DNA of 54,194 nt, from contig JAFGPR010000094.1 of the NCBI GenBank assembly GCA_016936095.1, positions 1 to 54,194 on the forward strand, read 5' to 3'. Within the stretch, counting starts at the first letter, position 1. Each line of letters begins with the position of its first letter. This stretch comes from Ignavibacteriales bacterium. GTDB taxonomy: Bacteria > Bacteroidota > Ignavibacteria > Ignavibacteriales > Melioribacteraceae. A model generated the notes under the pieces. The model was not told the origin of the DNA, did not search any database, and saw only the letters and a list, made by a program, of their open reading frames with translations. Positions 409 to 11,623 of the stretch are shown in pieces. Made by a program: the position numbers and the translations under genes.

Positions 409-3400
409 ATGCTAATTGATAACAAAACCCAAAGAGAAAACTTTCCAAAAACTTTAATTGAATTTTTTCAAAAATATCTGGCAACGGGATCACTTGAAAC
501 AGTAACTGGTTATTTTTCAGTTCCCATGCTGGCTTACGCATTTGAGAATTTCAATGCTATTGAAAATTACAAACTAGTTCTTGGCAATCTTGTCAAAACT
601 GAAAAAGATAATGATAAAATTGTAAATTTATTACTTCAAGAAGAAGGATTATTTTCAACACTTAACCTCAGTGAGCAAGCAAAAAAAGCAGTAGACTTTT
701 TAAGACAAGAAATTGTCCAAGTAAAAACAGTGCGACCAAATTTTTGCCATGCTAAATCATATGTTTTTACAAGTAAGGATAATGATGCTCAAAAAAGTTT
801 CTTCATTATGGGAAGTTCAAATTTTACAGAATCAGGATTAGGTTTATATCCATCAAGTAATGTGGAGTTGAATTATGCCGATTTCGGAGGAAGCTCAGAT
901 TATAAGGAGATAAAAAACTGGTTTAATAACTTATGGAAATCTGAAGAAGCAAAAACTGAAATAGAAGTTGAAAGTAAAAAAATATCATATAAGGATTATC
1001 TCATCGAATTAATCAGCAAGTTGTTTAAGGAGTATTCACCTCAACAACTTTATTATAAGGTTTTATACGAATTATTTCGTGAAGAACTAATTGATTTTGA
1101 CCCACAGAGTTTGTTAAGTAAACAGATCGAACATTTACGCGATACAACTATCTACAATGTTTTATATCCATTCCAACAGAAGGGAGTACTCAGCTTAATA
1201 CAAAAACTACAAAATTATAATGGAGCAATCTTAGCAGATGCTGTTGGTCTTGGTAAAACATGGCAGGCGCTTGCTGTAATGAAATATTTTGAAATTCAGG
1301 GCTATAGAACTTTTCTATTTTGCCCTAAAAAACTTGAACACAACTGGCGCAGGTATTTAGAGGGACACGACTCAAAATTTGAATCGGATAAATTAAGATA
1401 CACAATAAGATATCATACTGATTTACAAGACGAAAGAATTAATGGTTATGATGACGGATTTACATTAGATAATCACTTTAAAAACAATCCTAAAATTTTA
1501 ATTATTATTGATGAAAGCCATAATCTTAGAAATGATAAATCAATTCGATATAAATTTTTAGTGGATAATATTTTATCAACAAATAAAGATGTGAAAGTAT
1601 TAATGCTTTCTGCGACACCGATAAATACTAAACTACTTGATATTAGAAATCAATTTAAGTTAATGGTAAAGGGCGATGATAAAGGTTTTGAAAATTCAGA
1701 ATTTGAAATTTCAAGTCTTCAATCATTATTCGCAAACGCACAAAAAGATTTCAACGAATGGCAGGAATTGGGAGACAGAAGGATAAGTGTATTTATTAAT
1801 AAATTACCACAACATTTCTTTTCACTTGCCGATGCAGTAATCGTTGCCCGAACAAGAGAACTTATTAAGAAAACAACAGAAAATGATGTCTTTGAATTTC
1901 CTAAAAAGGAAAAACCAACAAATGTATTTGTAAGCCCCAAAAGTATTGGCTCACTAAAATCATTTGAAGAAATTTTAGATGCACTAAGCATAAATCTAAC
2001 AGCATATAAACCTGCACAATATACTTCTGAAGAAAAAGTCAAATCTGTACTTGAAGATGAAAAACAAAGACAGAAATTTTTGGTTAAGATGATGTATATT
2101 TTGATGATAAAACGGCTTGAATCCTCATGGCATTCTTTTAAAATAACTGTTAATAATATTCTTGAACATCATAAAAATGCATTAGATAAGGTAAATGAAT
2201 ATTTGAAAACAAAAAAAGAAGAAAAGATAGAGTTAGAATTTAACGAGTCAGATACTGAAGATTTAACAGAAATTGCAAATGACCTTGAACAGCAAAATGG
2301 GATAACTTACGAAGATATAACTTTGGGTAAAAAGAACCCAATACCAATTTCGAGCATTACACAAATTAACTTATTCAAAAAACATCTTGAAGAAGATATT
2401 GAAAAATTTAATTCCTTAATGAATGACCTTAACGAATTATTTAAAAAGACTGAAGATGAAAAAAGAATTCCCAATAATTACAAAAGCGTTGATAATAAAC
2501 TAGAAAAATTGATTGAGTTAATTTTAGATAAAAGAAAAGAGAGAGAAAATAAAAAGGTTCTGATTTTTACTGTTTATACTGATACGGCAAAATATCTTTT
2601 TGAACAATTGAAAGCGAGGGGTTTTACAAGAATTGCTTATGTATCGGGTAGCGAAGGGAAATCAGATGATGGATATAGCAGCAAGAATTTTGAACCAATC
2701 CTCGAAAGATTTGCACCATATACTAAATTGTTCAACGAAAAGGATTGGTCTAAATATTACAGAACGGATGGAATATTAAAAATTGAAAATTTTGATGATT
2801 GGAAAAATTACATAATTACAAAAGATATAAAACTTAAAGAACAAATTGAAAATCCAATTGACATTTTGATTTCTACCGATTGCCTTAGCGAAGGACAAAA
2901 CTTACAAGATTGTGATTGCGTTATCAACTATGACATTCATTGGAATCCGGTGCGTTTAATACAAAGAATGGGTAGAATTGACCGGCTTGCTTCTCCAAAT
3001 AAAAGTATTATGGGAATGAATTTTTGGCCTGCTGATAGTTATGAACAATTTTTGACTTTACGAAAACGAGTCGAAGAAAGAATGGCTCTGCTTTCCATTG
3101 TTGGTGCTGAGATTGACCCGAATATTTCTCCTGATATGGAAGAAATAACAAAAGGTAATCCTTTAATTTCTCATCAAGAAGAAAAGATGCTTGAGCAACT
3201 GCAAATAAGTTGGGATGATATTGAAGATAATTCTGAAACTCTGGGATTTGATAAATTCTCTCTCGAAACATTTCGACAGGAACTTTACGAATTATACCAG
3301 CAAAAGAGAAAAGAACTTGAAGCAATTCCAAATGGTGTATATACGGGTTTTAAACAAAAATTAGATGTTATTTCAGAATCAAAAGAAAATGCTCTCGTTG

Positions 3401-3783
3401 CACTTATAGGATATCCCAAAAGAAATATTGATGAGAACGAATATAAATATGAGAAACTCCACTTGATTTATGCGGATGGAATTTTACCACCAAAATTTAT
3501 TAACGATGTAGAACTTTTAAACATATTAAGACAGCATAAATCTGACAAAAGGCTTGTTCCAAATAAGATAGACAAAATGGATAAGAAAGAAATTAAAAAT
3601 ATGCAATCGCTAATAAAAGATTGGTTGAATTGGAAAACAGGGAAAACAACTGTTGAATCTATTTCAGATTTATTTGAGAAAGGAGTAACAGAGCAGACGA
3701 AACCGAAAGTAAAAAAAATAGAAGATATTTATAAAGAAGAAAATTTTGATTTAATAACCTGGTTTGTGATTTCTAAAGATTAA
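409..3783 (+). CDS. PLD-nuclease (single HKD motif) fused to SNF2/superfamily 2 helicase; restriction/defence type
   Basis: N-term FCHAKSYVF...MGSSNFTESGLG (HxK...SN); ADAVGLGKTWQ Walker A; IIIDESHNLRN (DESH); LMLSATPIN; STDCLSEGQNLQDCDCVINYDIHWNPVRLIQRMGRIDR helicase C-terminal motifs. Confidence 0.9.
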   Translation: MLIDNKTQRENFPKTLIEFFQKYLATGSLETVTGYFSVPMLAYAFENFNAIENYKLVLGNLVKTEKDNDKIVNLLLQEEGLFSTLNLSEQAKKAVDFLRQEIVQVKTVRPNFCHAKSYVFTSKDNDAQKSFFIMGSSNFTESGLGLYPSSNVELNYADFGGSSDYKEIKNWFNNLWKSEEAKTEIEVESKKISYKDYLIELISKLFKEYSPQQLYYKVLYELFREELIDFDPQSLLSKQIEHLRDTTIYNVLYPFQQKGVLSLIQKLQNYNGAILADAVGLGKTWQALAVMKYFEIQGYRTFLFCPKKLEHNWRRYLEGHDSKFESDKLRYTIRYHTDLQDERINGYDDGFTLDNHFKNNPKILIIIDESHNLRNDKSIRYKFLVDNILSTNKDVKVLMLSATPINTKLLDIRNQFKLMVKGDDKGFENSEFEISSLQSLFANAQKDFNEWQELGDRRISVFINKLPQHFFSLADAVIVARTRELIKKTTENDVFEFPKKEKPTNVFVSPKSIGSLKSFEEILDALSINLTAYKPAQYTSEEKVKSVLEDEKQRQKFLVKMMYILMIKRLESSWHSFKITVNNILEHHKNALDKVNEYLKTKKEEKIELEFNESDTEDLTEIANDLEQQNGITYEDITLGKKNPIPISSITQINLFKKHLEEDIEKFNSLMNDLNELFKKTEDEKRIPNNYKSVDNKLEKLIELILDKRKERENKKVLIFTVYTDTAKYLFEQLKARGFTRIAYVSGSEGKSDDGYSSKNFEPILERFAPYTKLFNEKDWSKYYRTDGILKIENFDDWKNYIITKDIKLKEQIENPIDILISTDCLSEGQNLQDCDCVINYDIHWNPVRLIQRMGRIDRLASPNKSIMGMNFWPADSYEQFLTLRKRVEERMALLSIVGAEIDPNISPDMEEITKGNPLISHQEEKMLEQLQISWDDIEDNSETLGFDKFSLETFRQELYELYQQKRKELEAIPNGVYTGFKQKLDVISESKENALVALIGYPKRNIDENEYKYEKLHLIYADGILPPKFINDVELLNILRQHKSDKRLVPNKIDKMDKKEIKNMQSLIKDWLNWKTGKTTVESISDLFEKGVTEQTKPKVKKIEDIYKEENFDLITWFVISKD

Positions 3784-3811
3784 AAAATTAAAATAAAACA
3801 TGAACGCATAA

Positions 3812-4186
3812 ATGTTAGACATAAATGATTTAACATCAGGAATATTAAAATGTGCATACAAAGTTCACTCTGAACTTGGACCTGGACTTTTAGAAAGTGC
3901 TTATGAAGAGTGTTTATTTTATGAACTTGAACAGGCAGGATTTCGTGTTGAGAAGCAGAAGACATTACCTTTGGTTTACCACGATGTTAAATTAGATGCA
4001 GGATATAGAATTGATTTATTAGTTGAAAATAAAGTTGTGTTTGAAATTAAAGCTGTTGCATGTTTCAATGATGTTCATCTTGCACAAGTTTTGACTTATC
4101 TTAAACTATCTAAATGCAAAATCGGTTTACTCATAAATTTTAATGTTAAATCACTTAAAAACGGAATTAAAAGAGTAATTTATTAA
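3812..4186 (+). CDS. GxxExxY family protein
   Basis: GPGLLESAYEECLFYEL (GxxExxY) and DLLVENKVVFEIKAV nuclease-like core. Confidence 0.9.
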   Translation: MLDINDLTSGILKCAYKVHSELGPGLLESAYEECLFYELEQAGFRVEKQKTLPLVYHDVKLDAGYRIDLLVENKVVFEIKAVACFNDVHLAQVLTYLKLSKCKIGLLINFNVKSLKNGIKRVIY

Positions 4187-4189
4187 TTA

Positions 4190-4283
4190 CTCTGTGTGAC
4201 TCAGTGAAAACCTCTGTGCGACTTTGTGGTAAAAAATACTTAACCACAGAGTATCGCAGAGTAAGGCACAGAGTTTCACAGAG
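4190..4283. repeat. imperfect 41-bp-arm dyad of phased CTCTGTG motifs
   Basis: Left arm CTCTGTGTGACTCAGTGAAAACCTCTGTGCGACTTTGTGGT (4190-4230), 12-nt A-rich loop, right arm ACCACAGAGTATCGCAGAGTAAGGCACAGAGTTTCACAGAG (4243-4283). Confidence 0.85.
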
Positions 4284-4328
4284 AGAAAAAAAACTATAAA
4301 GGATTTTTATTATAAATCAAGAAGGAAT

Positions 4329-7300
4329 ATGAACCTACAAATTTTTAACAAAGAGAATCTTTTTAATTCATCTAATAATTTGTTCGAGCAGCTCGGAATT
4401 AAACTTAACTCCAGTACAAGCGAAAATATTCCAATCAAAGATGTCCTTAAAAATCATTACAAGGAAAACAATACTTTTAATTCCATCGGCAATACTTATT
4501 TTATTGGAATTATTGATGATTCAATATTTAAAGAAACTGGTATGTTCGATGAAAATTATTCTTTCAGCGATGCACTTGAGCAATCAGAAATAAATTATAA
4601 TGGTTTAATGCTTTTTGCAATTGAATTAAATAAAATTCCGACAAGAACTGAAATTTCCGATATTACACGAGCATTCAACCGAGTCAGCAAAAAAATGCCC
4701 GTTGCTGTTCTATTAAAATATTTTATTGATAATGAAGCGGTTATCTCTTTTGCTATAAGCGAAAGAATGTCCTACCACCAATCTTGGCGTGCTGGGGATA
4801 AGGTTGGTAAAATTACAATGTTAAAAGATATTAAAATAAATAAAACACATTCGGCTCATTTAAAAATACTTAGTGGTTTATCTATTTTAAATCAAAGACC
4901 TCCTATTCGTTCTTATAATGACCTACATAAATTTTGGCAACACGCTTTTTCAATTCAAGCATTAAATGAGAAATTTTATACTGATTTACAGGAATGGTTC
5001 TATTTTGCAGCACAAAATATTGAGCTTCCATTTAAACCTGATTATATTAATGAGAAAGAAAATATAAAAAATTTTCTTGTTCGTTTACTTGCGAGAATAA
5101 TGTTTTGTTGGTTCGTAAAGGAAAAAGGATTAATCAAATCTGAATTATTAGAAATAATAGATTGGAACGGCAGAAAGTATCTTTTAACAAATGATATTGA
5201 TGATAAAAATTTTCTATTTAGTAACTCATATTATAGAGGAATTCTACAAAATATTTTTTTTAATGCGCTTAATAAAAAAGATAAAAAATCAATTAAAGAT
5301 TTCAAATGGCTAAAATATTTAAATTCTAATTTTAATATTGAATGGTTGCTAAAAATACCGTATTTAAATGGTGGCATTTTTGATAAATTGGAAGAAGATA
5401 ACACAAAAGAAAGTATTGAAGATTCTGTAATAAAAATACCAAACTACTTATTCTATGGCATCGAGAAAGAAGAAGAGATAGTTACAGGGCGAAGAAGAAA
5501 TATAAAAAATATAAAGCATAAAGGATTAAATTGTATTTTAAATGATTATAAATTTACACTTGACGAAAACACACCTTTTGAAGAAGATATTGCACTAGAT
5601 CCGGAAATGCTCGGATTAGTTTTTGAAAATTTACTTGCCGAATTAGATCCTAATCTGGAAGAGAACACAAAAAGAAGTATTAGAAAACTAACCGGAAGTT
5701 ATTATACTCCTAGAAAGATCATTTACGAAATGGTAAATGATAGTTTATTTCTTTATCTCAATAAATTTATTCAAGAAAAATATAAAGATTTACCAAACAA
5801 TAAACAAAAAATTAATGATTTAATTTATTTTAACAAATTTGAAGATGATGATTCTACTTTCTCGGAAGCAGTAGTTGACTCATTAGATAAATTTAAAATT
5901 CTTGATCCAGCCTGCGGTTCGGGTGCTTTTCCAATGGGTATGTTGAATCGGATAGTAGAGATATTAAAAACAGTTGATTGTAAAAATGAAAGATGGATAA
6001 ATATAAAACTCAGGAATGTTGATTCAGCACAACAAAATGAATTTAAAAAAGTTTTAACAATTCATCTCGATGATTATAGTCGTAAGTTAGGTATTATTAG
6101 AGATAGTATTTATGCTATTGATATTCAACCAATGGCAGTTCAAATTACCAAACTGCGATTTTTTATTTCTTTACTTATAGACCAAAAAACAGAAAATATT
6201 ATTACTCCAATGCCGAACATTGAAACAAAAATAATATGTGCCGATAGTTTGAAAAACATACATTCCGACTTCTTTAATGAAGAAGCAATAAAAAAACTTA
6301 CGGAAGCAAGAAATATTTATTATCGACCTGATTTAACACAAGAAGAAAGGAATAGAATTACAGATGAAATAGTTATTATTCTAAATGATGCTTTCCCTGA
6401 TTTTCATAAAGATGTAACAGGTAAAAATCAACCGGTTAGGAATAAAGAACTTTTAAAAAAATGGTTTAAAGAAGCAGCCATCTCTGCTCCATTTTTTAAC
6501 TTAGAATTTTTCTATCCCGAATTAAAAGAACAAGGTGGTTTTGATTGTATTATTGGGAATCCACCTTATGGAGGGAATAAAGTTACTGATGATGTACGAA
6601 ATTCATTAGATATTGAGAGTAAGGATCCATACGGTGCGTTTATTGCTCGATTTCTTAATAATTATGATAAACCAACACCATTAAAACACGGTGGTGTACT
6701 GGCTTTTATAGTTAGTGATACTTTTATGACTATTAAAAGTCACTTAAAACTTCGAAAACATTTAATGCAAAATTATATCCATAAAATGGTTCGTGTCCAT
6801 CCGGATACTTTCAGAGCAACCGTAAATACTGTAATTATGGTTGCTGAACGTAATACAAAAAGAGAGTTTAATGAAGAACATATATGCTTAATGGCTGATC
6901 TAACTAATATAAGCATTCACGAAAATTATGAGAGATTTATACAAATACTAAACCTTACCAAAGTTGATGAATTTGACACGGATAAAAAGAATATTAGTAA
7001 TGAACAATTCGCAATATATAATTTTCCACAGTCACTTATTAAAACTAATAGTAATTTACCTTTCTTTGTTGCAAGTCCTAAACTATTTTCGCTTATGAAT
7101 GATTCCGGACCTGATTTAAAAAAGGAATGGAGAGAGATATCTGGTGTTAAAATATTGAATAGAAATTTGAAAATCAATAATAAAATTTTAGGAATCGTGA
7201 AATTAGGTGATGTTGAAAAAATCGCAAAAGGCATGGATAGTTGTATAAAGTATGTTTTTAGATCCGATAATAATGTACCAATCATTAGAACACACTATAA

Positions 7301-8027
7301 AATTGTTGATAAACAAAAAATTAGAAGCAAACACGAAATAACAATACTTACAGAAAAGGAGAAATTAAATGGTGTATCTGAGAAAGATTTTATTATACCA
7401 TTTAATAAAGGAGCTAGTTCAGATAGTTCTGATGGATGGTTACCAAATTATTATGTTCCAATAGAATATTATATTGATTGGTCTACAAAAGCTGTAGATG
7501 AGCACTACCACCGAAATAAAAATTTATATTTTTTGGACGGCTTGACTTTCTCATTTCGCGGAGAATATTCACCTACGTTTAGATTAAAAAACATAGGCCC
7601 ATTTGATGCGAATAGTTCATTCATTGGAACAAGAAATTTTGATCCTATTATATTACTTGGTGTATTGTGTTCAAAATTTATTAGGTACATTTTTAATGTC
7701 TACATACAACATACGATTGCTTCTGATATTGATAAAATTAAAGAAATTCCAATAAAATTAACACTTAGTAATAATAATATTTTAAATAAAATGATATTAG
7801 ATATAATTGATAAACAAAAAAGTACTTCAAGATATGACTATTCTAGTTATGAACAGATTGAAGTTGATAAAATAATTTACGATGAATACGGTCTCAATAT
7901 GGAAGATGTTCAAGAAGTAGAAAATTGGTATGCACGCAGATATCCAAAACTTGTTTCAGCCCAGAAGTCAAATCTACGGGCACTTGGTAAAAGCGATGAT
8001 TATTTAGTTTTATATGGTTTAAGGTAA
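4329..8027 (+). CDS. Eco57I/PglX-like N6-adenine DNA methyltransferase (with probable target-recognition region)
   Basis: ILDPACGSGAFPMGML motif I, IDIQPMAVQITKLRFFISLL, FDCIIGNPPYGG motif IV; 1232 aa. Confidence 0.9.
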   Translation: MNLQIFNKENLFNSSNNLFEQLGIKLNSSTSENIPIKDVLKNHYKENNTFNSIGNTYFIGIIDDSIFKETGMFDENYSFSDALEQSEINYNGLMLFAIELNKIPTRTEISDITRAFNRVSKKMPVAVLLKYFIDNEAVISFAISERMSYHQSWRAGDKVGKITMLKDIKINKTHSAHLKILSGLSILNQRPPIRSYNDLHKFWQHAFSIQALNEKFYTDLQEWFYFAAQNIELPFKPDYINEKENIKNFLVRLLARIMFCWFVKEKGLIKSELLEIIDWNGRKYLLTNDIDDKNFLFSNSYYRGILQNIFFNALNKKDKKSIKDFKWLKYLNSNFNIEWLLKIPYLNGGIFDKLEEDNTKESIEDSVIKIPNYLFYGIEKEEEIVTGRRRNIKNIKHKGLNCILNDYKFTLDENTPFEEDIALDPEMLGLVFENLLAELDPNLEENTKRSIRKLTGSYYTPRKIIYEMVNDSLFLYLNKFIQEKYKDLPNNKQKINDLIYFNKFEDDDSTFSEAVVDSLDKFKILDPACGSGAFPMGMLNRIVEILKTVDCKNERWINIKLRNVDSAQQNEFKKVLTIHLDDYSRKLGIIRDSIYAIDIQPMAVQITKLRFFISLLIDQKTENIITPMPNIETKIICADSLKNIHSDFFNEEAIKKLTEARNIYYRPDLTQEERNRITDEIVIILNDAFPDFHKDVTGKNQPVRNKELLKKWFKEAAISAPFFNLEFFYPELKEQGGFDCIIGNPPYGGNKVTDDVRNSLDIESKDPYGAFIARFLNNYDKPTPLKHGGVLAFIVSDTFMTIKSHLKLRKHLMQNYIHKMVRVHPDTFRATVNTVIMVAERNTKREFNEEHICLMADLTNISIHENYERFIQILNLTKVDEFDTDKKNISNEQFAIYNFPQSLIKTNSNLPFFVASPKLFSLMNDSGPDLKKEWREISGVKILNRNLKINNKILGIVKLGDVEKIAKGMDSCIKYVFRSDNNVPIIRTHYKIVDKQKIRSKHEITILTEKEKLNGVSEKDFIIPFNKGASSDSSDGWLPNYYVPIEYYIDWSTKAVDEHYHRNKNLYFLDGLTFSFRGEYSPTFRLKNIGPFDANSSFIGTRNFDPIILLGVLCSKFIRYIFNVYIQHTIASDIDKIKEIPIKLTLSNNNILNKMILDIIDKQKSTSRYDYSSYEQIEVDKIIYDEYGLNMEDVQEVENWYARRYPKLVSAQKSNLRALGKSDDYLVLYGLR

Positions 8028-8032
8028 AATTT

Positions 8033-8446
8033 ATGAAATATTGGGTTGTAAAATTTGCACCTTTCCGTTATTCTTGGTCGGATATATTGCTCAATGGAAA
8101 ATTTGAAATTTATTCTGTAAGAAATATTCAAGCTTGTAATAATCTAAAGCAAATGAAAGTAGATGATAAAGTACTTTTTTATCATAGTCAAATTGAAAAA
8201 CAAATCATGGGTATTATGAAAGTAATAGAAGAAGCTCATAAGGATAAAACTACTGCTAATAACAGATGGGTCTCTGTAACTTATGAACCTATTGAAAGTT
8301 TTAATAAACCTGTTTCATTAAATGAAATAAAAAACACAAATGAATTAGCGGACATTGGTTTAATAAGACAACCTCGACTTTCTGTTATGCCTATTAAAAA
8401 GGAATATTTTGATATTATTGTTAAGAAAGGTACAAAAATAATTTAA
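8033..8446 (+). CDS. EVE domain protein (PUA-like modified-base reader fold)
   Basis: MKYWVVKFAPFRYSWSDI...VRNIQACNNLKQMKVDDKVLFYHSQ...GIMKVIEEA...LIRQPRLSVMPI; starts 5 nt after methylase stop. Confidence 0.88.
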   Translation: MKYWVVKFAPFRYSWSDILLNGKFEIYSVRNIQACNNLKQMKVDDKVLFYHSQIEKQIMGIMKVIEEAHKDKTTANNRWVSVTYEPIESFNKPVSLNEIKNTNELADIGLIRQPRLSVMPIKKEYFDIIVKKGTKII

Positions 8447-8473
8447 TCAATTGAATAATATTAGGGATATCAA

Positions 8474-9331
8474 ATGATTTTTTTAAATATTTGGCAGGAT
8501 TTTTTTGGTGTATCAAATGATACCGTATTCACCGTATTTACAACTTTATCTATATTTTTTCTTGGTTTGATAATTAAATGGTGTTATTCTAAATACAAGA
8601 AAACGAAAAAAAATAAAAATATTAAAAAATTTATTATTGCTCAATTAGAGGTATTATCAAAAACCTCAATATTACAAAGAGATAAGTTTATTGAATATAA
8701 AAATAAACTGAGAGAAGAAAGAATACAAAATATAGAATTAGTGAAAGTTGCAAATTTAAATACAAGATATATTCGTGATATTAAATTTGACCAAATTTTT
8801 GAAGTACTTGTACTATCATACAAAAACAAAAAAAGAAATAATCTCGAAAATTTTAACAAGTTAGTTAAACAACTTGATTTGCTTGATGGCATAATTAATT
8901 TATCTTATGATGCTTTTATCAATACACATAATCTTTTATCTAGTTATGAAAATAAATGGAATAAAAACATTGAAGAAATTGGTGACTTCCACGATAAGTT
9001 GCTTAATGATATGACTTATAAGAACATAGACCCAAGGACAGATCCATTTTTAAAAGAATTCTATTCAATATATCACGATTGGACAAAAATGGATCATAGA
9101 CTCGATATGTACATTGCTATAGATTCGATTATAAATCCTATTTTGGAAAAAGCACGTGCTACACAACCGAATACTTTTGCTACTTACATTTTAAGAAATC
9201 TCTTAAGTTGTATTGATGCTTTTTCTAATCATAAAAATTTAAGAGAAATTATTATTAAGGAATTTGATAATTTTTCAACACAATTAGAAACAATAGCAAA
9301 AGATTTTTCGGAAATTAAAAATAATATATAA
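8474..9331 (+). CDS. membrane-anchored, coiled-coil-rich protein of unknown function
   Basis: N-terminal TM helix VFTVFTTLSIFFLGLIIKWCY followed by a Lys-rich stretch and helical C-terminus; 28 nt downstream of EVE gene. Confidence 0.65.
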   Translation: MIFLNIWQDFFGVSNDTVFTVFTTLSIFFLGLIIKWCYSKYKKTKKNKNIKKFIIAQLEVLSKTSILQRDKFIEYKNKLREERIQNIELVKVANLNTRYIRDIKFDQIFEVLVLSYKNKKRNNLENFNKLVKQLDLLDGIINLSYDAFINTHNLLSSYENKWNKNIEEIGDFHDKLLNDMTYKNIDPRTDPFLKEFYSIYHDWTKMDHRLDMYIAIDSIINPILEKARATQPNTFATYILRNLLSCIDAFSNHKNLREIIIKEFDNFSTQLETIAKDFSEIKNNI

Positions 9332-9366: not shown

Positions 9367-9664
9367 GTAATAGCCCCTGGTATAGAGAAAATAACATCAG
9401 AAAAAGAATATGAAAATATAGAGGTATAAACTCTGTGTGTCTCTGTGAAAAACTCTGTGCGACTCTCCCGCCAAGTCGGGACAGGTGTGGTAAAAAAAAA
9501 CTTTACCACCGAGTATCGCGGAGTAAAGCATAAAGAAGTATAAACGATGCAGAGGTAAAAATAATAGACCCGGATATATAGAAAATAATATCAGAAAAGG
9601 AATATGAAAATATAGACATATAACCTCTGCGTAACTCTGCGTCCAACTTTGTGCCCTTTGCGGT
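9367..9664. repeat. ~194-bp-offset direct duplication containing two more CTCTG(T/C)G repeat copies
   Basis: 9371 TAGCCCCTGGTATAGAGAAAATAACATCAGAAAAAGAATATGAAAATATAGAGGTATAAACTCTGTG versus 9565 TAGACCCGGATATATAGAAAATAATATCAGAAAAGGAATATGAAAATATAGACATATAACCTCTGCG. Confidence 0.85.
9465..9485 (+). repeat. short GC-rich element inserted in second CTCTGTG repeat
   Basis: CTCCCGCCAAGTCGGGACAGG interrupts GCGACT/TGTGGT relative to copy 1 (GCGACTTTGTGGT). Confidence 0.6.
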
Positions 9665-9986: not shown

Positions 9987-11117
9987 ATGAAAATGGAAAT
10001 TAATGTAAACACAGATATTTTAGTTTGGGCAATAGAGCGTGCAGGTTACAATTTAGAGGAGATATCTTTAAAAGTGCCTAATATCTTTTCTTGGATTAGT
10101 GGAGATAAAAAACCAACGTTAAAGCAGTTAGAAAAGTTTGCTCAAAAAACCTATTTACCTTTCGGTTATCTATTTTTGGATAACCCACCCATTGAAAAAA
10201 ATCCAATTCCATTTTTTAGAACAGAGCAAGTTGGAGAACATAAAATAAGTTTAAATGTTTATGATTCTATCCTTATTGCTCAAGAAAGACAAGAATGGTT
10301 GGCGAACTATCTAAAAGAAAATGAATATCTACCATTGGATTTTGTAGGTAGATTTAAAAGCCACAGTGATATTAAGGAAATAGTAAAAGATATACGAACT
10401 ACCCTAAATCTTTCTGATTCATGGGCAAGTGAATTTCCTAATTGGGAAAAAGCAAGAGAATATTTAACTCAAGTAATAGAAGAAGTCGGTGTAATAATAA
10501 GTTCTAGTAGTATAGTTGGTAATAATGTATATAGAAAAATTAAAGTAAATGAATGTAGGGGGTTTGTTTTAATTGACAATTATGTCCCTTTTATGTTTAT
10601 CAATTCTTCTGATAGCAAATCTGCACAACTTTTTACAATTGCTCACGAAATAGCACATATTTGGATTGGTGAAAGTGCAGGTTTTGACTTTCGTAATCTT
10701 CAACCCGCTAATAATCATATCGAATTATTATGTAATAAAATTGCTGCCGAGCTTTTAGTACCTTCTGATCTATTAAAGAAAAAATGGGATGCTGAAAAAG
10801 GTATAGAATATTTAGCAAGAGAATTTAAAGTAAGTCAAATAGTTATCGCTCGCCGATTGCTTGATTTGAACAAATTGAATAAAAATGATTTTTTCAAATT
10901 TTACAATAACTATATTAACCTTGAAGTTCGTAGTAAAGAAACCGGTAATAACGGAGGCGATTTTTATAGTACTGCAAAAAAACGTCTCAATAAAAGATTT
11001 TTATATTTTGTTAATCAGGCAGTTAATGAAAGTAAACTTTTGATTAGGGACGCTTATCGTCTTACGGGTTTGCGAGGAGGCGCCTATAACAAATTGATAA
11101 AGGAGCATCTTCTCTAA
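9987..11117 (+). CDS. ImmA/IrrE family metallo-endopeptidase with N-terminal Xre-like region
   Basis: LFTIAHEIAHIWIGES (HExxH); N-term ISLKVPNIFSWISGDKKPTLKQLEKFAQKTYLPFGYLFLDNPP. Confidence 0.88.
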   Translation: MKMEINVNTDILVWAIERAGYNLEEISLKVPNIFSWISGDKKPTLKQLEKFAQKTYLPFGYLFLDNPPIEKNPIPFFRTEQVGEHKISLNVYDSILIAQERQEWLANYLKENEYLPLDFVGRFKSHSDIKEIVKDIRTTLNLSDSWASEFPNWEKAREYLTQVIEEVGVIISSSSIVGNNVYRKIKVNECRGFVLIDNYVPFMFINSSDSKSAQLFTIAHEIAHIWIGESAGFDFRNLQPANNHIELLCNKIAAELLVPSDLLKKKWDAEKGIEYLAREFKVSQIVIARRLLDLNKLNKNDFFKFYNNYINLEVRSKETGNNGGDFYSTAKKRLNKRFLYFVNQAVNESKLLIRDAYRLTGLRGGAYNKLIKEHLL

Positions 11118-11623
11118 TGTCCATTTTCATACTTGATAGCAATTTTTTTATTCAAGCACATAGAATAAATTATCCTATTGATGTTGCATTAGGATTTTGG
11201 AATCTTGTCAAATCAATTTCTATTGAAGGTAAAATAATTAGTATTGATAAAGTAAAAAATGAAATTTATAAAAATGACGATGAGTTGAAAAAATGGACAG
11301 AGAACAACTTACCATCCGATTTTTTCAAAAACACGAACCAAGAAATTGTATTGGAGAACTATAAAAAAGTAATTCTTTGGGCTGATTCCAAAAAAGATTT
11401 TTATTTACAAAAGGCGGTAAATGATTTTTTTGAATCTGAAAACGCTGATCCTTGGTTGGTTGCCTTTGCTCTTTCTTTATCTGAGAACTGTTCTATTGTT
11501 ACACATGAAATTAGCGAGCCAAATAGAAAGTCAAAAATTAAGATACCTGAAGTTTGTAATGCATTTAATGTTAATTATGTTAATACAATTCAAATGTTTA
11601 GGACGATAAATGTCACTTTTTAA
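11117..11623 (+). CDS. DUF4411-type PIN domain protein
   Basis: [37 protein letters not shown]; overlaps upstream stop (TAATG). Confidence 0.85.

Follow-up and report, generated by a model that had tools for sequence, protein, structure and literature searches.

A helicase–methylase gene pair from an Ignavibacteriales bacterium as a putative two-gene, ATP-dependent restriction-modification system

The DNA analyzed in this study, referred to as the window, is one entire contig (C156; JAFGPR010000094.1, 54,194 nucleotides) of the draft genome of an Ignavibacteriales bacterium (GCA_016936095.1; 317 contigs, 77.7% complete). Close to its 5' end, a helicase with an HKD nuclease domain and an SNF2 motor is encoded next to an N6-adenine methylase. 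Judging from sequence features and conservation, this pair is probably a two-gene, ATP-dependent restriction-modification (R-M) system that resembles a Type ISP enzyme divided over two proteins and carries an HKD domain as nuclease. The results obtained by analysis are the pairing itself, the integrity of the motifs, the loss of HKD where another nuclease is present, the co-divergence of the methylase N-terminus with the helicase, and the exchange and inversion of recognition domains. The pair does not qualify as a BREX, DISARM or Hma/BR system, and is unlikely to be a Type IIG system. An initial annotation, made from the sequence alone, had grouped five genes of this locus into a split R-M-like or BREX/DISARM-related system. 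Its split R-M part is supported, with predicted nuclease and translocase in one protein and the methylase in the other, while the five genes do not form a conserved unit.

Results

The five co-directional open reading frames (ORFs) were found exactly as annotated, at 409–3783, 3812–4186, 4329–8027, 8033–8446, and 8474–9331 of the forward strand, with products of 1124, 124, 1232, 137, and 285 amino acids, respectively. The first (409–3783) encodes the predicted restriction/translocation subunit, consisting of a single N-terminal HKD (PLD-like) domain, an SNF2-type superfamily 2 (SF2) motor, and a C-terminal region (Pfam PLDc_2, SNF2-rel_dom, and Helicase_C). Both the HKD motif and the full set of SF2/SNF2 motifs claimed for this protein were confirmed. 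Specifically, H114-x-K116 is followed by G135-S-S-N138 (GSSN, 135–138), and the motor contains the Walker A lysine K283, a DEAH-type box (DESH, 368–371), and a RecA2 region at about 815–860. As the motor motifs are intact, ATP-dependent translocation is predicted from motifs alone.

The gene at 4329–8027 (forward strand) encodes the predicted modification/specificity subunit. An N-terminal domain (about residues 1–205) precedes a gamma-class N6-adenine methylase core (Pfam Eco57I, 1.3e-20) and a C-terminal target recognition domain (about residues 880–1232). The reported DPACGSG and NPPY motifs are present at residues 526–532 and 744–747. The window locus exhibits all features by which we define the pair: adjacent genes, intact HKD, SNF2 motifs, DPACGSG, and NPPY.

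The genomes of the phylum (396) were searched with the helicase and with the methylase, those of the class (294) with the methylase, and plasmids and viral contigs were searched in addition. Well over 60 pairs were recovered in total. Among 61 genome-derived loci bearing the methylase, 57 have a helicase of the same family beside it; 56 of these pairs lie on the same strand and 54 in the order helicase–methylase. The two genes are directly adjacent in 38 of the 61 loci and separated by one gene in 14. The linkage is far above chance, and co-occurrence in other genomes, on which the initial annotation had staked its proposal, thereby speaks for the pair. Four methylase loci are unpaired: L264 lies at a contig start, L268 holds a weak homologue (214 bits), the methylase of L272 is preceded, at a contig start, by no more than a partial ORF of 208 residues, and L266 is unexplained. 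A scan of the genome contigs with the helicase as single query returned one locus only. The pair was also found on viral contigs and on plasmids of Lactococcus, Lactiplantibacillus, Parabacteroides, cyanobacteria, and one haloarchaeon.

The intervening gene is variable and encodes a KilA-N or Bro-N, YhcG/DUF1016, DUF559, NYN, or GxxExxY protein. On a Microcystis plasmid (L123, 10185–11652), a nucleotidyltransferase and a SLATT-domain protein are located between methylase and helicase and resemble a CBASS-like pair within the operon.

Among methylase-paired helicases of full length, those of the genome and plasmid searches have an intact HKD motif (HxK...GSxN) in 59 of 59 cases, and it is likewise intact in all 16 methylase-paired rows from viral contigs (12 distinct). 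In the helicase tree, a single clade (21 rows, fully supported) is nested among these methylase-paired proteins, and its partners are DUF4391 and type III Mod/Res proteins. The H, K, and N of HKD are lost in this clade, without exception among its type III-paired rows from genomes and plasmids, and the same loss was seen in 54 of 54 type III-paired rows of the independent viral-contig set. The helicase motifs are retained, and the partner Res keeps its PD...ExK motif (37 of 37). This pattern fits the helicase as restriction subunit, with HKD as the putative cutting site of the methylase-linked pair that would become dispensable once Res supplies another nuclease. The HKD-dead loci (L034–L045, L062–L070, and L159–L234 on viral contigs) come from many bacteria, including plasmids of Listeria, Citrobacter, and Shewanella, and from one archaeal plasmid.

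For 46 helicase–methylase pairs, the distances between individual methylase domains were compared with those between the helicases (300 permutations). The N-terminal methylase domain follows the helicase closely (rho 0.72 overall, reached by 0 of 300 permutations; 0.82 within the window's clade and 0.81 in the rest). The correlation is lower for the catalytic core (rho 0.30–0.42) and lower again for the recognition domain (rho 0.11–0.18). As the N-terminal domain tracks the helicase and the recognition domain hardly does so, the simplest reading is that the former would dock the helicase and that recognition domains are exchanged between methylases. The methylase is thus the predicted specificity subunit.

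Direct support for such an exchange is provided by inverted partial methylase C-termini immediately downstream of the methylase, found in L049, L071, L105, L117, L122, L150, L241, and L242. Inverted repeats were measured in the first six of these loci. Furthermore, serine recombinases of the resolvase family are encoded in L049, L105, L117, and L150, and a DNA invertase gene is annotated in L122. The window locus has no inverted C-terminal copy of its methylase.

The methylase N-terminus also bears on the possibility that the methylase itself is a Type IIG enzyme and the helicase an accessory. The PADLOC model REase_MTase_IIG matches two relatives of the methylase over nearly their full length (1.9e-218 and 3e-187) and the window methylase in part (1.1e-45), and REBASE, as quoted in PMC6098607, labels a Lactococcus homologue as Type IIG. 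However, no residue of the N-terminal 205 is more than 90% conserved across 37 methylases, and even among 12 closer relatives F6, L100, and L199 are the sole invariant positions. A fold search with the AlphaFold model of this region, which is of modest confidence, gave no significant match. The lack of conserved catalytic residues in this region makes the label doubtful. In addition, no restriction domain was found in the methylase described in PMC6098607, and the methylases are rarely without a helicase whose HKD is intact. We therefore regard a self-contained Type IIG methylase as unlikely.

The initial annotation left room for the arrangement having been catalogued before. No named system was found in PADLOC-DB or the papers searched, although the arrangement itself had been noted on plasmid pLd8 of Lactococcus lactis FM03P (2018), where orf33 (PLD, SNF2, and helicase domains) adjoins orf34, an N6-adenine methylase that has a recognition domain but lacks a nuclease; a nuclease was suggested to reside in orf33 and a putative type II system was proposed (PMC6098607). 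The arrangement is the same, and the Lactococcus plasmid homologues belong to the family analyzed here (L122). That account covers one plasmid and includes no family-wide analysis, partner switch, or test, and the window locus, with its additional genes, is only distantly homologous. Beyond it, searches of PADLOC-DB and of open-licence papers turned up no named two-gene SNF2/PLD and methylase system, while a subscription paper or a REBASE note could exist. The same literature searches yielded nothing on the PADLOC model C3a139, and for DUF4391 and GxxExxY unrelated papers only. C3a139 ('HKD+Snf2') matches the window helicase nearly full length (3.7e-74, residues 66–1056) and an HKD-dead, type III-paired relative more strongly (4e-138). 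It is a single-protein model whose best match is an HKD-dead type III-linked member, and it does not include the methylase pair. As far as single-protein models show, PADLOC-DB thus holds the pieces (C3a139 and REase_MTase_IIG), not the pair.

Type ISP enzymes such as LlaGI and LlaBIII share with the pair a motor, a gamma-methylase, and a C-terminal recognition domain. They combine ATP-driven translocation and collision, leading to head-to-head two-site cleavage, with an Mrr-like PD-(D/E/Q)XK nuclease (PMC3874165), and they are single polypeptides, whereas the window and the relatives examined have two genes and an HKD domain instead of the Mrr-like nuclease. No type III Mod or Res was detected among the 8 island proteins scanned.

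Alternatively, the locus could be a truncated or variant BREX-, DISARM- or Hma/BR-like system, with further genes upstream of the contig end. Helicase and methylase belong to the same superfamilies as DrmD, BrxH, HmaA, DrmMI, and PglX, and DISARM class 1 likewise combines an SNF2 helicase (DrmD) with an IIG-like methylase (DrmMI). The defining component of BR systems is a DUF499 ATPase, to which DUF3780 is added in Type-2 BR; the Type-2 systems contain HKD-SNF2 helicases (PMC12839542) and, like Hma, resemble the pair in joining an HKD and Swi2/Snf2 helicase effector with an N6-methylase. Archaeal operons of SNF2-PLD, COG1743, DUF499, and EVE genes also have a helicase of this kind, but with DUF499 at their centre (PMC7641849). 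Moreover, the window's membrane protein has a relative encoded after PglX in a BREX locus. The kinship stops at the shared superfamilies, however. DUF499 gave 0 matches in the source genome (78% complete) and none among the sampled neighbours of the pairs. These neighbours, which in many cases come from longer contigs, represent accessory genes and include no DUF499, DrmA/B, or PglZ. A Pfam scan of 8 window proteins gave no match to DUF3780, no whole-genome search being made for it.

The absence of PglZ, BrxC, DrmA, and DrmB from view, as originally remarked, holds for the window proteins scanned, which also lack DrmC, the upstream side being cut by the contig end. The only PglZ-domain match in the source genome is a 527-residue frame on another contig. 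Scores also fall far short of the family cut-offs: DrmD and DrmMI yielded distant local matches only (the helicase reaches 128.7 bits where DrmD requires 610), and the PLD anti-phage protein family NF042964 scored 112.6 bits against a cut-off of 1100, its highest-scoring stretch being confined to the helicase part. Finally, the 408 bases 5' of the helicase are non-coding, with stops in six of six frames, which suggests that the helicase is the first gene of its operon. A larger system cut off by the contig end is accordingly about as improbable as the Type IIG interpretation.

Linkage of the other three genes to the pair is not conserved. The gene at 3812–4186 (forward strand), which separates the helicase gene from the methylase gene, encodes a PD-(D/E)XK-like GxxExxY protein (PDDEXK_3/GxxExxY, 6e-43; TIGR04256, 2.6e-45) and is judged an incidental insertion. 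The source genome has 5 copies; within the class, the gene occurs in 73 of 109 genomes, at up to 9 copies per genome, and lies inside many unrelated operons. Of the 35 ORFs that neighbour it in a 20-locus sample, 31 share its direction, and the family matches among them are metabolic or housekeeping (e.g., urocanase, carbamoyl-phosphate synthase, and AcrB). A role as defence gene, at first encouraged by copies of the source genome adjoining cas1 and two type I restriction operons, was dropped in view of these neighbours. The gene looks like one that inserts into operons in general, with a self-spreading, nuclease-fold appearance (window, L125–L128, and L243–L262).

The gene at 8033–8446 (forward strand) encodes a stand-alone EVE-domain protein (Pfam EVE, 7.7e-36) with Atu2648 as nearest solved relative (2e-20). 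This possible modified-base reader is not a conserved part of the pair: relatives occur in 154 of the 396 genomes, but beside the pair in the window only, the loci of the other pairs having none and the remaining matches lying elsewhere. The last gene (8474–9331, forward strand) encodes a single-span membrane protein (hydrophobic segment, residues 15–39) with a helical cytoplasmic part and no Pfam match. Only two weak, distant relatives were found in the 396 genomes, neither of them beside another helicase–methylase pair. The better match (L154, 7967–8956) belongs to a BREX locus, where it overlaps the end of pglX and BrxC is encoded upstream; the other (L155) adjoins an HSDR_N_2 protein. That such membrane proteins accompany DNA-methylation-based defence as a shared accessory is a lead, not proof.

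A single defence system made up of the five genes, in which GxxExxY would be another nuclease and EVE would read modified bases and direct restriction, draws on the tight co-directional spacing, on GxxExxY filling the same slot in L103 and L141 and adjoining cas1 and type I operons in the source genome, and on the archaeal EVE operons (PMC7641849), but is very improbable given the metabolic neighbours of GxxExxY and the confinement of EVE and membrane protein to this one pair. All three genes look like local hitchhikers.

A cluster of CTCTGTG/CACAGAG repeats lies between the GxxExxY and methylase genes (4190–4284, forward strand), and a second CTCTGTG cluster lies 3' of the membrane-protein gene (9431–9460, forward strand). 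Genome-wide, the pattern used for the search occurs in these two places only, flanking the methylase–EVE–membrane block. A link to GxxExxY was rejected, as its other copies have no cluster. Another such cluster is found between helicase and methylase in L104 (8034–8061). Upstream, 240–350 bp 5' of the helicase, three imperfect 37–40-bp repeats (53–169, no strand assigned) with inverted TATAGT(T/C)AA and TTGACTATA arms form a possible operator array or recombination site. Downstream of the locus, an ImmA/IrrE-like metallopeptidase and a DUF4411 gene (9987–11623), probably a toxin–antitoxin-like module of the same island, are followed by a macro-domain-like ORF and core-gene-like ORFs. The same two genes also trail the helicase–methylase pair in L104 (14215–15869). 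Searches of the window yielded 0 Rfam matches and no tRNA.

Discussion

Single-HKD nucleases generally act as dimers. In the proposed mechanism, the methylase would find an asymmetric target via its C-terminal recognition domain and methylate adenine N6 on host DNA. Methylase and HKD-SNF2 helicase would form a complex held mainly by the N-terminal domain of the methylase, and at an unmethylated site this complex would start to translocate at the expense of ATP. Where two complexes converge, or pair in some other way, two HKD half-sites could then be joined, so that the DNA would be cut. GxxExxY would be an unrelated insertion, with EVE and the membrane protein as optional local additions. The collision step is modelled on this dimer action and on the analogy with Type ISP enzymes (PMC3874165).

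Several points weigh against this interpretation. The correlation between HKD and partner represents essentially one evolutionary transition rather than 54 independent events, so that the type III-paired clade is to be regarded as a natural experiment. In L032 (Bacteroidales contig, 439–3891), the helicase is frame-split and the HKD lysine replaced (HAI). The AlphaFold models are of modest quality (predicted local distance difference test about 62–64), that of the helicase confirmed an SNF2-type motor only, and the low-confidence PLD region affords no independent structural proof. The contig end cuts the locus upstream, and nothing 5' of base 1 is visible. Furthermore, complex formation, methylation, translocation, cutting, and phage defence are all activities that we infer. 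The L032 helicase adjoins a partial methylase and is a degenerate copy.

With its pieces present in PADLOC-DB, the 2018 Lactococcus account, and its DUF499-based relatives, the pair is a variant on known ground that stands a fair chance of deserving its own class. On balance, we lean toward a distinct, widespread, and unnamed class of ATP-dependent R-M systems, a split Type ISP with HKD nuclease, which would have been hidden by its filing under Type IIG and orphan models. Type III systems would have taken over one branch of it as a nuclease-dead motor, and inversion of the recognition domain would let many members switch specificity. If this is true, genes of many genomes that are now labelled as Type IIG methylases and as helicase-related proteins would together constitute one R-M system missed by prediction tools, and specificity switching would add such loci to the phase-variable methylomes. 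As the HKD-dead branch keeps its motor with the nuclease provided by another protein, it would also make the role of a second motor in type III systems testable.

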